The notes under the pieces: generated by a model
The model's input: the letters and a program-made list of their open reading frames with translations, nothing else
Databases searched by the model: none
Told to the model about the DNA's origin: nothing
In this document: positions 689-10,977 of the stretch, piece by piece
How the letters are laid out: each line of letters opens with the position of its first letter
How positions within the stretch are numbered: the stretch's first letter is position 1
Position numbers and translations under genes: made by a program
Assembly: GCA_029932715.1 (NCBI GenBank)
Contig: JAOZPO010000033.1
Coordinates: 1 to 10,977, forward strand
Length of the DNA: 10,977 bases
Reading direction: 5' to 3'
DNA from: Halobacteria archaeon
Lineage (GTDB): Archaea; Halobacteriota; Syntropharchaeia; Alkanophagales; Methanospirareceae

Positions 689-1804
689 TCACGATACCTC
701 ATGATTCCTTTTCATTGCATCGAGCTTCAACAACGTATCACCAAATTCCGACGGTATGATTCCCGTAGCACCCATAGTCTTCGGATGCAGGTCAATCTCA
801 AGCACTACATGCTCATGCCCCAGCCATTTCAAAGGCTCCACTGTCCTCGGACCGTTAGTAACGGAGAATATCTCTGTCTTTATGCCATACTCCGCCAGTG
901 GCACTGCATGTGAAACACCCAACAAAACCGCAAAATCGTAATCTGAATACAAATCTTCAATCACCACAGCAGCTTTCTCGCCGGCAACCGGGTATTCGTC
1001 CAGCCCACCAATTAGATGGTCTATCCTTATGCCCTCTGCTGATAGTTCGTTTAGAATCGTCTTTGAATATCCACGTATCTTTTCCAAACCCACTTCGGTA
1101 TCAAGATTAGCGATATTTACTATTTGCGAAGAATGTGCGACTCTATTCACAGCTCTAAGAATATCAACGAACATAAATGCCGTCTCTTTCTTCGCATTCA
1201 AAACGCATACACCCTTTTTCCCTTCTCTTATTAGTTCAAGCAAGGTGCTCGCAACGTCTATTTTCGAGTCGCCTTTAGACGGTGGGATATAACTTTTACT
1301 TGCTGCACCCACTGCTTTCTCTATTCGCGTTGCCGCTTCAAGCATTACCTTCTGCCGCCTGAGTTCCTCGCTGCTAATAATACCTGATTTATACGCTGAC
1401 TCGAGGGTCATGATTACGCCCACCGTGTTGTCCCTGTACCCCGCATGCACATCTACCGCTATCGTTTTACTGCTGACTTCGCTGTCTTCTATCGCCTGAC
1501 TCAGGTCTTCACCTATTATCATGCTTGAACATGTGCCTACAACACCCATCAATTCAGGCTGAAACATCTCTTCCGCCTCTCGCAGCACCTTCACGAGCGA
1601 ATCATGCCCCCCGAAGACAAAATTGCTCTCGTTCATCGCTGTGGTTAACACGTGCATTCCGTCTTCTTCTAGTAGCCGGCTGTGCTTGAAACTACAGCCC
1701 GCGGGTCCGTGCATAATTGCTACTTCTGCATTCAGATCGCGAAGCGTATATAGAGCAGCTACAATCGCGCTTGGTCTCGGATGCAGTATCATCTCCTCTC
1801 TCAT
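689..1804 (-). CDS. cfbD: Ni-sirohydrochlorin a,c-diamide reductive cyclase, catalytic subunit CfbD
   Basis: CfbD is the NifD-like catalytic subunit of the CfbCD complex. With the ATP-dependent reductase CfbC it reduces and cyclises Ni-sirohydrochlorin a,c-diamide on the way to coenzyme F430, the cofactor of methyl-coenzyme M reductase. The 371-residue protein opens with the family signature [17 protein letters not shown] (residues 8-24), followed by HGPAGCSF around Cys37, RLLEEDG, FVFGG and GTCSSM around Cys92. It has only three cysteines (37, 92, 200). Cys37 and Cys92 match the positions where nitrogenase-like subunits bind Fe-S clusters, so a cluster shared across a homodimer is a fair inference. 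The start at 1804 is supported by GGGGTGAG about ten bases upstream; Met5 is a possible alternative. CfbC and the other cfb genes are not in the window. It is divergent from trpF across about 130 bases. Confidence 0.88.
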
Positions 1805-3739: not shown

Positions 3740-4345
3740 TTAAAGAGTTTCCTTCTTCAATGATAATCTGGTTTGAATAGAACGATATGTAGTTATTCTA
3801 TTCAAACTCCATTCGGCATCATCCATCTCGCCTCGTTCTTTCCAGTATTCATAGTTCTTTTCCCATGCTTTCAATGGTACTTCATAATCCGAGATGTCTT
3901 TACCAGAGAGCAGCATAATCTCCGCAGCGTGTTCGTACGCATCTGCCGCTTTAAAGAAGTTATCCATTGTATAAAAGAAGTTGCCCATTGTTTCATAGGT
4001 ATTCTTGCATGCTTCATAGTCGCCTTCTTTCTCATACATCTGACATGAAAGGCTCATAAGCAGCGCCCAGATCGAGAACTCACCTATCTTCACCGCAAAC
4101 GTTGAAGCAGCCCTAAAAGATTCTGCCGCTTCGCGCCAGCGTTGGAGCTTATCGCAAATCCGTGCAACGTTGAAATATCCATAGATGCACAAGAAGTAGC
4201 TCCCTTTGGACTCCTTAAGCTTTGCATACTGTCGCCACAGCTCGATTGTCGCTTCATGATCTCCCTGCTTCTCTTTCTCTCGCGCTTCACGTTCGTAATG
4301 CCTCGCTTTTAAATACGCATCCCTCTCCCTTTTCGCCCCATCCAT
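3740..4345 (-). CDS. TPR-like helical repeat protein
   Basis: A soluble 201-residue protein made almost entirely of amphipathic helices, with no signal peptide or membrane segment. At least four helix-turn-helix units of about 34-40 residues can be seen, roughly at 14-47, 52-87, 92-125 and 126-150. Typical TPR features recur: alanine at the packing positions and phrases such as WREAAESFRAAS (70-81), GDYEACKNTYETMGNF (108-123) and KAADAYEHAAEIM (132-144). The overall look recalls TPR/SNAP-like scaffolds, which bind other proteins and have no catalytic activity of their own. The function is unknown. It has its own well-formed TATA/BRE promoter and a short leader without an obvious Shine-Dalgarno site. 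The radical SAM gene follows on the same strand after 71 bases, so the two may be co-transcribed. Confidence 0.8.
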   Translation of the reverse strand: MDGAKRERDAYLKARHYEREAREKEKQGDHEATIELWRQYAKLKESKGSYFLCIYGYFNVARICDKLQRWREAAESFRAASTFAVKIGEFSIWALLMSLSCQMYEKEGDYEACKNTYETMGNFFYTMDNFFKAADAYEHAAEIMLLSGKDISDYEVPLKAWEKNYEYWKERGEMDDAEWSLNRITTYRSIQTRLSLKKETL

Positions 4346-7845: not shown

Positions 7846-8838
7846 CTATGCCGACATAGTTGTGTACGGATGCGGCTCCTGGAGTTCGATCTCGTGTTCT
7901 GTTTGCGCTGCCTCACCGACAATCATGTCTATCATCCCTACGAGCGGGAACACCGTTGACGCGTGCTCTATTGGGCCATACAGGATGAAGTCATTACCCA
8001 GGAGAGCTGGAATAACGTTACTGCCTACGTCACACATCTTGAACGCCTCTGCTCCGGGTCCTATCCACACACCTCTCTCCGGATGTTCGGAATGCTCCTT
8101 CCGGTATTGCTTTATCCACGTCCACGCAGAAGGTGCATTGTGTATACCCAACCCACAGGGTATGCCCCATTTCGACTTGAATACCATCGCGCATGCACAC
8201 GTAGACCCTGCCCCTGCACCAATGGGCAGCGTGGCAGGATCAATCAAAGGCTTTGTTATTCCACATTCCTTACCTATCGTCAGTATGCCCTTTTCAACGC
8301 CTCTTATCTTGATCGAGCCTGCTCCTGTCTCCATTAAATCCGCTCTACCCGCTACTGTTGCATCTTTCGGATTGAAAGACAATAGAATGGAACTTTCTAA
8401 CGAGCTGTCCCTGACTATATCGTATTCATCGTCGGTTATAGACATGTTCAGCGAATTGTAGATTGCTTTATCTGTTAGCCCTACTTCATCGCAATATTTG
8501 AGCCCTGCCAGCTTCGCCTCCGGAACGGTAGAATCAATCAGGAAAGGACTGTCACTCTTCTTTACGCAGAACTCTATCTCTTTTATCATTGCCTCTTCCG
8601 ATTCTGAGAATATCTGCATCCAGCATGGATTACCCGTCGTATCAGACATCTCATCCTGCATATTTATCAGTTCTTCAGCTTTCTTCTCGTCAAATATGCC
8701 TTTATCTGGGTCCTCAACGATATCATGGTTCGCGTAGAATATCGTACCCGCTAAAACTGTTGCCACTTCCCCGGGCTGGCCACCTACCTTCGTCTTCCCT
8801 ATTTCATATATATCCTGTTTCCTATCAAATACAAACAT
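7846..8838 (-). CDS. mtrH: Tetrahydromethanopterin S-methyltransferase subunit H
   Basis: MtrH is the peripheral catalytic subunit that moves the methyl group between methyl-tetrahydromethanopterin and the cobalt of the MtrA corrinoid. It has the expected start (MFVFDRKQDIYEIGKTKVGG), then SGxx-barrel landmarks: ANHDIVEDPDKGIFD, SPFLIDST, ADLMETGAGSIKIRG, GAGSTCACAMVFKSKWGIPCGLGIHNAPSAW and GNDFILYGPIEHA. The C-terminus (about 290-330) is slightly longer than in the homologues I remember. Its 330 residues contain no membrane segment, matching a cytoplasmic subunit docked on MtrA and MtrG. It is the last gene of the operon, 39 bases after mtrG, with an excellent ribosome site (GAGGTGAT). In a methanotroph the same enzyme would run in reverse. 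Confidence 0.96.
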   Translation of the reverse strand: MFVFDRKQDIYEIGKTKVGGQPGEVATVLAGTIFYANHDIVEDPDKGIFDEKKAEELINMQDEMSDTTGNPCWMQIFSESEEAMIKEIEFCVKKSDSPFLIDSTVPEAKLAGLKYCDEVGLTDKAIYNSLNMSITDDEYDIVRDSSLESSILLSFNPKDATVAGRADLMETGAGSIKIRGVEKGILTIGKECGITKPLIDPATLPIGAGAGSTCACAMVFKSKWGIPCGLGIHNAPSAWTWIKQYRKEHSEHPERGVWIGPGAEAFKMCDVGSNVIPALLGNDFILYGPIEHASTVFPLVGMIDMIVGEAAQTEHEIELQEPHPYTTMSA

Positions 8839-8877: not shown

Positions 8878-9147
8878 TCATGCAACTATAATAAACAACA
8901 CATATAGGAGTACCCCTACTACCACACCATACAAAGTCCCTATTGCGAATCCTAATTTCTCTCCCTGTTTTTGTGCCAGCTCACCAGCCACAAACTCTAC
9001 TTTCTCGTCCATCACTTTTAATCTATCCAGCAATTTCGTATGCTCGGGTGGTGTAATTGCAATTGGAACAGGAGCGGCTAACTCCTCCAGCTCCTCTTCC
9101 AGCCTCTTCAGTTCCTCCTCTTCTTCTCCTTTTTCCTCTTCTGCCAT
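8878..9147 (-). CDS. mtrG: Tetrahydromethanopterin S-methyltransferase subunit G
   Basis: MtrG is a small single-pass subunit of the Mtr stalk. The core after residue 33 matches the family: PPEHTKLLDRLKVMDEKVEFVAGELAQKQGEKLG, where a short coiled coil leads into one transmembrane helix (about 67-88, AIGTLYGVVVGVLLYVLFII). The N-terminus is extended by an acidic, Glu-rich helix (residues 3-23) followed by a Pro/Ala linker, making the protein 89 residues rather than the usual 70-80. The ribosome site GAGGGTAAG precedes the ATG. It stands in its canonical position just before mtrH. Confidence 0.9.
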   Translation of the reverse strand: MAEEEKGEEEEELKRLEEELEELAAPVPIAITPPEHTKLLDRLKVMDEKVEFVAGELAQKQGEKLGFAIGTLYGVVVGVLLYVLFIIVA

Positions 9148-9179: not shown

Positions 9180-9389
9180 CTATGCACTACTCATCAACAC
9201 AACTTTCAAGCCAGCAAGCGCCATGCTTATTAAGATACCCACTGCAAGCCCTTTTACAAACCCTACCCAGAGTCCAGCGGCAAACCTTGAGTCTTTCCCT
9301 ATAATGATTACCAGTTTCTTCAGGTCTTCAATCTTTGCCGTTATTACCGATGTCTCGGGCGTTTGTTGTACTACTTTCTGTGGTGGCAT
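9180..9389 (-). CDS. Small single-pass Mtr subunit resembling a detached MtrA C-terminal tail
   Basis: A 69-residue protein occupying the slot where mtrF normally lies. By eye it matches the C-terminal membrane tail of canonical MtrA better than MtrF: PETSVITAKIEDLKKLV (11-27) parallels the MtrA stretch that begins with Pro-Glu and runs into a coiled segment, and RFAAGLWVGFVKGLAVGI (35-52) parallels the MtrA phrase with 'AGIHAGKVQG' before its transmembrane helix. A single membrane helix spans about 43-66. MtrF and the MtrA tail are related in general shape, so a divergent MtrF remains possible, but the clear MtrF signature is found at the end of the preceding gene. Its ATG follows the mtrA stop without any gap, with GGGGTGAT inside the end of mtrA. 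Confidence 0.8.
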   Translation of the reverse strand: MPPQKVVQQTPETSVITAKIEDLKKLVIIIGKDSRFAAGLWVGFVKGLAVGILISMALAGLKVVLMSSA

Positions 9390-10148
9390 TCAGATCACCC
9401 CCGGTAACGACAAGTAAATTAGCGGTAGAAGGATCAGAATAGCTAATATAAATCCCGCTATCAGTCCAGGGATTGTATTCTTTGAAATCGCCATTGATAA
9501 CTTGTAATCACGTGCTAACATCTGAGATTTGTATCTTATGTCTTCCACCGAATCAGCGATTACACCCATGAAAGGATCAGCAGGCATAGCTAAAGGAAGT
9601 TCTATCTCTGCTGCTACCTCTTCCTCTGCTTCTACTTTCACTACCATCGGGTCTTCAGGAAAAGCACCCGGGTCTCTTGACACGCACTCCTGTATCTTCG
9701 CTTTTATCGCACCCGCGTCCTCGCTGCCGAGCATGTCAATCAGTTCCACCTGTTGTCTCAATCGCTCTACCGCTTCGATAGGCGCGTTCTCAATGAAAGG
9801 TATTGCACCTGCTGCATCTACTATCTTATGCGATTCAGAATCTATACCCTTTGCATGCATTGCCTTCAGCGAACCACCGCATATATGCCCGGGAACTTCA
9901 GGTCCTGCCAGTATATAGAACCTTATGTTTGGATTGCTAACAATATTAGCTATCTGCTTCTCCAAACCGATGTTCTCTGTCTTACACGCTCCTACCATCG
10001 CTGCACCCGCACTGAGGAAGTCTGCTATTACGTCATCTGAAAAGTGCCCGCCTGAGGAAGATACCACTACTGGATTCTTTGGATCGCCCACTGTATAATC
10101 GCCTGTTGCTACGGGCCAGCCCTCTGCCGGTTCTTTCTTCTCTACCAT
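9390..10148 (-). CDS. mtrA: MtrA corrinoid subunit fused to an MtrF-like membrane anchor
   Basis: MtrA carries the 5-hydroxybenzimidazolyl-type cobamide that accepts the methyl group and hands it to coenzyme M. Residues 1-171 are a clear MtrA domain: MVEKKEPAEGWPV, CKTENIGLEK (55-64), SNPNIRFYILAG (71-82) and GHICGGS with His88 in the place of the known cobalt-ligating histidine, then GAIPFIEN (114-121) and DPGAFPEDP (159-167). After an acidic linker (172-184) the protein changes: GVIADSVEDIRYKSQMLARD (195-214) and the transmembrane helix at about 227-247 are the MtrF pattern, not the usual MtrA tail. MtrA-MtrF fusions are documented for some archaea. At 252 residues it is slightly longer than normal MtrA. 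It starts three bases after the mtrB stop with a strong GGAGGTG site. Confidence 0.92.
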   Translation of the reverse strand: MVEKKEPAEGWPVATGDYTVGDPKNPVVVSSSGGHFSDDVIADFLSAGAAMVGACKTENIGLEKQIANIVSNPNIRFYILAGPEVPGHICGGSLKAMHAKGIDSESHKIVDAAGAIPFIENAPIEAVERLRQQVELIDMLGSEDAGAIKAKIQECVSRDPGAFPEDPMVVKVEAEEEVAAEIELPLAMPADPFMGVIADSVEDIRYKSQMLARDYKLSMAISKNTIPGLIAGFILAILILLPLIYLSLPGVI

Positions 10149-10150
10149 TG

Positions 10151-10459
10151 TTATGCACCTCCTAACCCCAAACCATACAATACAATCGCTATTAGCAATA
10201 CGCCAAACATCAAACCAAGCATCAGCATTGTGATGAAGCCCGCTATATTCGTTATCCCTTCGCGATTGGGCTGTGCCATTTTGTATGTAGTTGTAGGAGT
10301 GAGGATGTCAAAAAGCTCGTCTACCGCTCTTTCTAGAGTCCCCAACTGCTCATCTATTGGCCCCAGACACACTTTATATACGCCTGGCTTTGCTTCCCCT
10401 ACTGTAAGCGTTGCATCGTCCAAAACAACTCCGAATTTCTCATTTATTGTTAGTACCAT
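10151..10459 (-). CDS. mtrB: Tetrahydromethanopterin S-methyltransferase subunit B
   Basis: MtrB is a small single-pass subunit of the Mtr complex. The 102 residues have a soluble N-terminal half (GVVLDDATLTVGEAKPGVYKV, then a leucine-rich helix around 38-52 ending FDILTP) and one C-terminal transmembrane helix at about 71-96, after the PNREGI turn. Order and length fit the family. It begins 15 bases after mtrC with a GAGGGGTGT ribosome site and ends two bases before mtrA, so the three genes are translationally linked. Confidence 0.93.
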   Translation of the reverse strand: MVLTINEKFGVVLDDATLTVGEAKPGVYKVCLGPIDEQLGTLERAVDELFDILTPTTTYKMAQPNREGITNIAGFITMLMLGLMFGVLLIAIVLYGLGLGGA

Positions 10460-10474
10460 TTTTACACCCCTCTC

Positions 10475-10977
10475 TTAGCCTCCTAATGTCTTTATCATAC
10501 CTGTGCCCACGACCTCGTATGACTCTTCCAGACACGCCTTTACGTATGCCCTGTAAAAGACCACCCATACAATTGCACCGAGCACAATCAGCGATGCACC
10601 CTGAACTGCACCCAAAGTCATTACTGTGATTAGACCCAGGATGATGCAGTTTATGCCTCCTATCTCGATAGCCATAAGTAACGTTCTTCCTCTTCTCTCG
10701 TCAGCACCAAGGCATGAATTTAATGGCTGGAGCATCCCGAACCCTGCCATAATGAACATAAGTGCGACAAAAGCTACGGGTGGTACGGTTCCCAGTACTG
10801 GTTGTCTCAATATGGTATCGGCGTCCCATGTTCCCCCAATGATAGAACATTCCAGTATTATCGCCAGTGTCCCTGCAACTGCCAGTTCCATCATTCCTCG
10901 CTCTAAGCCCGGTATTTTCATGTTTATGAACTTATCGCCGTTTGCAAGTATCCCACTGACATACCCAATGACCGCCT
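10475..10977 (-). CDS. mtrC: Tetrahydromethanopterin S-methyltransferase subunit C, C-terminal part
   Basis: MtrC is one of the large multi-pass subunits (with D and E) thought to form the sodium-translocating part of the complex. The frame is open to the right edge of the window, so the start is missing and about 166 C-terminal residues are present; the ATG at 10921 is internal, because the upstream codons still read as MtrC (GDKFIN before MKIPGLERGMMEL). Further matches are AAGTL-like AVAGTLAI, the loop FGMLQPLNSCLGADERRGRT and the ending EVVGTGMIKTLGG. Several transmembrane helices are visible. mtrD and mtrE are expected next, outside the window. Confidence 0.93.
   Translation of the reverse strand, partial: AVIGYVSGILANGDKFINMKIPGLERGMMELAVAGTLAIILECSIIGGTWDADTILRQPVLGTVPPVAFVALMFIMAGFGMLQPLNSCLGADERRGRTLLMAIEIGGINCIILGLITVMTLGAVQGASLIVLGAIVWVVFYRAYVKACLEESYEVVGTGMIKTLGG

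Follow-up and report, generated by a model that had tools for sequence, protein, structure and literature searches.

Mtr is described as the only energy-conserving step of hydrogenotrophic methanogenesis (PMC12774963), and in methane oxidation it is reported to consume sodium motive force (PMC9012536). In the canonical complex, as described for M. mazei (PMC12774963) and as compared here by sequence matches only for Methanothermobacter marburgensis (8Q3V), each protomer has one A, one B, one F and one G stalk helix, and a flexible linker joins the corrinoid-binding head of MtrA to the A helix, at the core of the stalk. According to the M. mazei structures (PDB 9QTP-9QTS; PMC12774963), the cytosolic stalk has the A helices (177-210) at its core, its vestibule being closed by Phe210; F is on the outside, crossing MtrB and in contact with MtrE; and B, F and G contribute their N termini to a sheet, on the MtrB part of which MtrH docks. 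The coupling of methyl transfer by the corrinoid domain to sodium transport was named as a gap in that 2025 structure paper.

Heads carried by other helices have been described before. Wang et al. (2015; PMC4632066) reported mtrA-2a, a fusion of MtrA with MtrF, in Methanococcales and Methanocella arvoryzae, and mtrA-2b, a fusion of MtrA with MtrG, in Methanomicrobiales; mtrA-2a is an additional copy in genomes that also have a normal mtrA-1 ending in its own tail, and mtrA-1 is likewise kept beside mtrA-2b. For TACK, Methanoliparia and ANME-1, Mei et al. (2023, PNAS Nexus; PMC9982363) reported an operon EDCB[AF]FGH with "a duplicate mtrF". The locus analyzed here has the same operon type, with an F-type module fused to MtrA. 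As in mtrA-2a, the corrinoid head is carried by an MtrF-type helix, but the fusion is the only MtrA match in the genome and the A helix appears to be detached; mtrA-2b also places the head on another stalk helix, although there it is G. Whereas the fused part is treated in PMC9982363 as a duplicate mtrF beside an ordinary one, in our comparison the free gene falls with the canonical MtrA tails, so that the pair would represent an exchange, F not being duplicated. Our search, which covered the open literature, found no description of an exchange of MtrA and MtrF anchors. While the fusion is thus already known, and the preliminary description was right that such fusions are on record, the free gene has the look of a detached MtrA anchor.

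The window, that is, the whole stretch of 10,977 nucleotides analyzed here, comes from a genome assembly (GCA_029932715.1) of 1.32 Mb in 186 contigs that is 85.7% complete. We treated this genome as ANME-1 type because the named close relatives of its MtrA and of the free 69-residue protein are mostly Methanophagales, Methanospirareceae or ANME-1. The products of mtrC, mtrB, mtrA, mtrG and mtrH pass their Pfam cut-offs and are encoded on one strand in operon order, mtrE and mtrD lying outside the window (Table 1). Both mtrA and the gene of the 69-residue protein lie exactly where the preliminary description had placed them, and they abut as TGA-ATG. The last codons of mtrA (about 9393-9402, minus strand), encoding the C-terminal GVI, include a GGTGATC that we liken to the archaeal ribosome-binding consensus; a GVI ending is found in 21 of 32 distinct ANME-1 fused tails. 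When the genome was searched with profiles, MtrA was matched once and the MtrF model just twice at E <= 0.001; both of the latter matches lie in this operon, the one in mtrA extending over 9420-9581 (PF09472). An Rfam scan of the window returned nothing at gathering scores. Elsewhere in the window, the nitrogenase-component-1-like protein may perhaps take part in the synthesis of cofactor F430, as CfbD does.

Table 1. Features of the window. A and F denote profiles of canonical MtrA tails and canonical MtrF, respectively (joint training).
Feature	Coordinates	Strand	Basis or remark
mtr operon of ANME-1 type, C-B-A-x-G-H (x, 69-aa protein)		-	Pfam, NCBIfam
mtrC	10475..10975	-	Runs off window end; PF04211, 110 bits (148-aa part from ATG)
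mtrB	10151..10459	-	PF05440, 57.4 bits
mtrA, 252 aa: corrinoid head, linker and MtrF-type anchor	9390..10148	-	Pfam, NCBIfam, AlphaFold2
MtrA corrinoid-binding head, residues 1-172	9633..10148	-	PF04208, 235 bits
MtrA linker, residues 173-189, ending in LPLAMP	9582..9632	-	Sequence comparison, AlphaFold2
MtrF-type anchor module, MtrA residues 190-242	9423..9581	-	F 57.3 vs A 3.1 bits
Shine-Dalgarno-like GGTGATC in mtrA 3' end, before ATG of free gene	9393..9399	-	
Free 69-aa protein, very probably a detached MtrA anchor	9180..9389	-	A 41.8 vs F 22.0 bits
A-type anchor module, 69-mer residues 9-61, with E12, F36 and G43	9207..9365	-	
mtrG	8878..9147	-	PF04210, 60.3 bits; TIGR01149, 58 bits
mtrH	7846..8838	-	PF02007, 383.6 bits
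Protein matching SNAP, soluble NSF attachment protein; probably TPR-like	3740..4345	-	PF14938, 34.9 bits (cut-off 25)
Nitrogenase-component-1-like protein	689..1804	-	PF00148, 67.7 bits

The head of the long protein is that of an MtrA. Its His88 lies in an invariant G-H of the alignment and is itself invariant in 25 aligned MtrA sequences, and a role as corrinoid ligand is described for this histidine in canonical MtrA (PMC4915002, PMC12774963). Residues 190-243 match the Pfam MtrF family (PF09472) at 55.5 bits, well above the cut-off of 22, and in NCBIfam the tail passes the cut-off of TIGR02507 (46.7 bits; cut-off, 25) while remaining below that of NF009776 (56.3 bits; cut-off, 64). The claim that MtrA ends in an MtrF-type segment, initially based on VEDIRYKSQ and ARD, both present in the tail, is thus borne out by the profile HMMs that the preliminary description had proposed as a check. 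In 5,000 residue shuffles of this tail, its preference for F was never reached. AlphaFold2 predicted the head up to about residue 172, a low-confidence stretch at 173-195 and helices at 194-223 and 225-251. In the fused proteins of ANME-1, the module is preceded by an LPLAMP-like hydrophobic stretch (mean hydropathy, 0.74; 10% acidic residues); the corresponding values are 0.87 and 3% in Thermoproteota and 0.15 and 19% in Methanoliparia. The canonical MtrA linker is acidic in the two canonical groups (hydropathy of -0.98 and -0.53, with 42 and 28% acidic residues), and the start of canonical MtrF (-0.16) is less hydrophobic than the LPLAMP-like stretch. We infer that this stretch may be the counterpart of MtrF's N-terminal strand.

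Taken singly, the 69-residue protein is less clear-cut. It contains the P11-E12 and the AAGLWVGFVKG at 37-47 on which its initial comparison to the free tail of canonical MtrA was based, and its top NCBIfam match is the tail of the MtrA model TIGR01111 (31.1 bits, profile positions 183-237). Among the MtrF models, it scored 28.6 bits with TIGR02507 (cut-off, 25) and 23.0 bits with NF009776 (cut-off, 64), and with Pfam MtrF it fell narrowly short of the cut-off of 22 (21.7 bits). When used as a single sequence against the PDB, its best match was an MtrF chain, 8q3v_F, by a margin of 1.4 bits (27.8 bits versus 26.4 bits for 8q3v_A), and the order was reversed for the M. mazei chains (A, 18.2 bits; F, 13.3 bits). 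Its preference for A was reached in 133 of 5,000 residue shuffles. The 69-mer alone therefore constitutes only modestly significant sequence evidence, and it is through the comparative set that the assignment becomes secure. AlphaFold2 modeled it as one long helix (residues 11-68).

A nearly gapless module of 53 columns is common to canonical MtrA tails, canonical MtrF, the tail of the window's MtrA and the 69-mer. Canonical A and canonical F modules share 19% mean identity and look like old paralogues, and, contrary to the statement in PMC4632066 that Mtr subunits share no homology, the A tail and MtrF are clearly homologous in this alignment. The modules compared were those of MtrA and of the small gene following it at 41 ANME-1, 6 Methanoliparia, 8 Thermoproteota, 56 Methanobacteriota and 41 other Halobacteriota loci, distinct modules being counted since some loci repeat a genome. 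Loci were grouped by record title, by genome family or by MtrA similarity ("Mbact" for Methanobacteriota and "Mmicro" for the remaining Halobacteriota); similarity placed L053 (titled Methanomicrobia) and L035 with ANME-1, L039 (titled Halobacteria) with Methanoliparia and L059 with the other Halobacteriota. The profile groups left out L044, L062 and L136 (present only in the FastTree of 249 modules), the repeat genomes L001-L003, L143-L151 and L157, and loci whose MtrA has no tail module (e.g., L083, L126, L137-L142, L155, L156 and the Bathyarchaeia-class loci from L158); MtrG-ended second copies of MtrA were likewise left aside, and no Methanococcales or Methanopyrus locus was knowingly in the sample. 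In L035, a Candidatus Nitrosotalea record, the mtr operon is of ANME-1 type, and the contig may have been misbinned.

For the A and F profiles, the training sets comprised Methanobacteriota and other Halobacteriota only, jointly and singly. In all three trainings, every fused tail was called F type (44/44: 32 ANME-1, 4 Methanoliparia and 8 Thermoproteota) and every free protein A type (43/43: 31, 4 and 8, respectively), and the canonical modules were called correctly (77/77 A tails and 81/81 MtrF). In the joint training, the fused tails preferred F over A by medians of 34 to 53 bits. The margin of the free proteins in favor of A was smaller, with medians of 17 bits in ANME-1 and 34 bits in Thermoproteota compared to 70 to 79 bits for canonical tails. 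Two residues separated the groups almost without exception: glutamate in column 4 (E12 of the 69-mer) is present in 76 of 77 canonical A tails and glycine in column 35 (G43) in all 77, both are found in 43/43 free proteins, and neither occurs in any of the 81 canonical MtrF or 44 fused modules. Among the 28 most discriminating columns, the fused tails were closer to F in 24 and the free proteins closer to A in only 15, showing that the free protein has diverged.

Database searches pointed in the same direction. A profile built from 15 free proteins matched the MtrA chains of both species in the PDB (54.5 and 34.1 bits) better than their MtrF chains (37.1 and 24.1 bits), whereas a profile of 11 fused tails scored 62.4 and 59.4 bits with the MtrF chains and picked up a single MtrA chain, with 18.2 bits. 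Curated models separated the free proteins weakly: TIGR01111 scored above TIGR02507 for the six further free proteins tested, but for one of them (P0207) the models tied, at 41.2 versus 41.1 bits, when NF009776 was the MtrF model; a canonical MtrF used as a control scored 118 bits with TIGR02507 and 18.9 bits with TIGR01111.

An unrooted maximum likelihood (ML) tree of 78 modules picked by identity thresholds separated canonical A tails and free proteins from canonical MtrF and fused tails (UFBoot 100; internal branch, 0.88). By sequence, the fused tail is thus very probably the orthologue of MtrF and the free protein that of the MtrA tail. Constraining the tree to no exchange (A with fused, F with free) was 41.3 lnL worse (AU P = 0.007; repeat, 0.002), and constraining it to a lineage-specific duplication (fused with free, A with F) was 41.4 lnL worse (AU P = 0.003; repeat, 0.007). 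The same split was recovered by FastTree from 249 distinct modules (support, 0.994), in which the MtrA tails of L044, L062 and L136 fell on the A side and the free module of L136 on the F side. In L044 and L062, the A-tailed MtrA is directly followed by an mtrG-like open reading frame, and no mtrF was seen in the locus.

As for the history of the fusion, the fused tails did not form one clade in the ML tree; forcing them into a single clade cost 13.9 lnL. A single origin of the fused tail was thereby nearly rejected (AU P = 0.054), and there may have been one exchange, two, or independent fusions. The fused tails of ANME-1 and Methanoliparia grouped with MtrF of other Halobacteriota (support, 98), which, together with the near rejection, suggests that the lineages may each have gained, or replaced, their F part on their own. 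The MtrA heads of the exchange lineages formed no clean clade (support, 59; L114 and L118 inside). A tandem mtrA-mtrF duplication followed by complementary losses would give the order head-F and then A tail, but this is a guess.

The pairing of the two modules is conserved, as is their number. All 27 exchange-type genomes searched (8 Thermoproteota, 4 Methanoliparia and 15 ANME-1) had one module in an MtrA-length frame (245 to 291 aa) and one in an adjoining frame of 62 to 123 aa, and in none of the 27 was a third module found below an E value of 0.01; the free module itself scored between 0.001 and 0.01 in 4 of them. Four other genomes of the window's class gave no module match below 0.01. 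Because two neighboring modules, one A type and one F type, and no third were found throughout, the helix set appears to have been kept while subunit contents were reshuffled, as had been anticipated from the window alone. Both genes are under purifying selection, since dN was lower than dS each time the window was compared with six relatives (12 of 12 comparisons, dS being saturated in 3); for the free gene, dN was 0.075 and dS 1.23 relative to L030.

On the basis of these sequence comparisons, we consider it highly probable that ANME-1, Methanoliparia and Mtr-bearing Thermoproteota have undergone a reciprocal exchange of anchors, the corrinoid head being carried by the MtrF helix and the A helix being made as a separate protein.

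Four other explanations were weighed. The one that survives best, although we hold it to be unlikely, is that the free protein is a mosaic, namely, an A tail in which gene conversion has replaced part of the membrane half with MtrF sequence. Columns 37 to 45 of the free proteins indeed lean toward F in ANME-1 (-7.5 bits) and Methanoliparia (-7.9 bits), and gene conversion has been reported for the mtrA heads of other methanogens (PMC4632066). However, the same columns are neutral in Thermoproteota (0.3 bits), and the lysine in column 38 is almost fixed in free proteins, while A tails have Q or E at this position and only 28% of MtrF have lysine.

Somewhat less probable still is that the free protein represents an old third helix module, sister to the A tails, that replaced the A tail. 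The free proteins form one clade of their own beside the canonical A clade (supports of 87 and 91) and have their own marks (Trp or Tyr in column 33, Phe in column 36 and Lys in column 38), and an unrooted tree cannot separate an orthologue of the A tail from an old paralogue beside it. This scenario nevertheless requires a third ancestral gene and complementary losses, the search of the 27 exchange-type genomes having revealed none with three modules, and no sampled locus had two modules after one mtrA. In addition, the branch separating the two halves of the tree (0.88) greatly exceeds in length the stem of the A clade (0.24) and that of the free clade (0.15).

We regard as very improbable that mtrA was fused to a copy of mtrF while the ordinary mtrF remained, leaving two F helices and no A helix, as the published wording for this operon type implies (Mei et al., PMC9982363). 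The names of the free proteins agree with that wording: of 72 relatives of the 69-mer, 28 are named, 26 as subunit F and 2 as hypothetical, and among 16 relatives of a Thermoproteota free protein all 5 named ones are subunit F. Of seven free proteins tested, six score above the TIGR02507 cut-off (25 bits), which may explain these names. The free proteins nevertheless all preferred the A profile and all had Glu 4 and Gly 35, absent from the 81 canonical MtrF; they share 33 to 39% mean identity with canonical A but 23 to 26% with canonical F; and grouping them with canonical F or with their own fused tails was rejected (AU P = 0.002 to 0.007). The single-gene trees of PMC9982363 are without mtrF and mtrG.

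Finally, mere divergence, the long protein ending in a diverged A tail and the 69-mer being a diverged MtrF, which the homology of the two modules, some F-like columns of the 69-mer and its 1.4-bit PDB preference might suggest, is refuted by the profile competition, the AU test, the diagnostic residues and the PDB profile search (62 versus 18 bits for the fused tails), and we give it virtually no credence. The preliminary description had named a 69-mer nearer to MtrF, combined with an MtrA C terminus nearer to A tails, as the outcome that would speak against an exchange; profiles, the ML tree and AU tests, FastTree and PDB profiles all gave the opposite, the comparison with 8q3v_F and 8q3v_A being the lone one to lean that way.

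Given the exchange of anchors, we infer helix positions, tether geometry and function from residues mapped onto the published structure. Phe210 of 9qtq_A corresponds, in the PDB alignment, to F36 of the 69-mer (column 28). This column harbors F or Y in 39 of 43 free proteins, the four from Methanoliparia having L (two) or M (two), and it harbors L in 44/44 fused tails and 79/81 canonical F modules. Among canonical A tails, F or Y is found in 32 of 35 from other Halobacteriota and F in 1 of 42 from Methanobacteriota; with Methanoliparia also lacking it, the phenylalanine is not a universal mark of A. The corrinoid head of MtrA would be fused to the stalk helix of MtrF, and the A helix would be made separately from the gene in the mtrF position. 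Since each exchange genome keeps one A-type and one F-type helix, the A/B/F/G stalk could be built as in methanogens, with one helix of each kind per protomer. The free A helix would take the core position of the stalk and, where the phenylalanine is present, close its vestibule, so that the seal would stay with the free A helix. The F helix would be peripheral, next to MtrB and MtrE, with the mobile corrinoid head on its N terminus, beside the sheet where MtrH docks. The AlphaFold2 single-chain models fit this picture of exchanged anchors, single helices showing no position in a complex.

Second MtrA copies with an MtrG-like C terminus were seen in 12 loci (L090, L096, L097, L100, L104, L106, L108, L109, L112, L113, L115 and L116), and the one checked, in L112, matched TIGR01149 at 83 bits. 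Together with the window, the G-ended copies indicate that A, F and G are all carriers of the head. We lean, if only slightly, toward a joint reading that treats the stalk as an invariable helix set and the B12-bearing head as a detachable load, placed on A in the canonical complex, on F in the present lineages and, in the second Methanomicrobiales MtrA, on G. In the same reading, the ion seal (the free A helix) and the tether of the methyl carrier (the F helix) would be different proteins, so that sodium coupling could not depend on the head directly pulling the plug helix, and the exchange would be a rare genomic change common to Thermoproteota, Methanoliparia and ANME-1.

We also considered a link between the exchange and connectase, which acts near the KDPGA site of MtrA. 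PF09894 (MJ0548_N), which we take to stand for the N-domain of connectase, was found in none of 51 ANME-1-family, 8 Thermoproteota and 4 Methanoliparia genomes; it scored above the cut-off in 4 of 21 other Halobacteriota (a fifth being below) and in 14 of 19 Methanobacteriota. As it was also under the cut-off in 17 of the 21 and 5 of the 19, respectively, its absence is not specific to the exchange, and the link was rejected. Connectase has been mentioned as one possible repair route for MtrA (PMC12774963).

If the exchange is true, what is now called MtrF in ANME-1 and Thermoproteota would be an MtrA tail. Phylogenies in which MtrA to MtrG are concatenated by name (e.g., PMC9635834) may then align paralogous modules, and the lineages hit by such a misalignment may be exactly those of disputed position. 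For the mechanism of Mtr, a corrinoid head and a plug helix on separate chains would limit models in which the head pulls the A helix.
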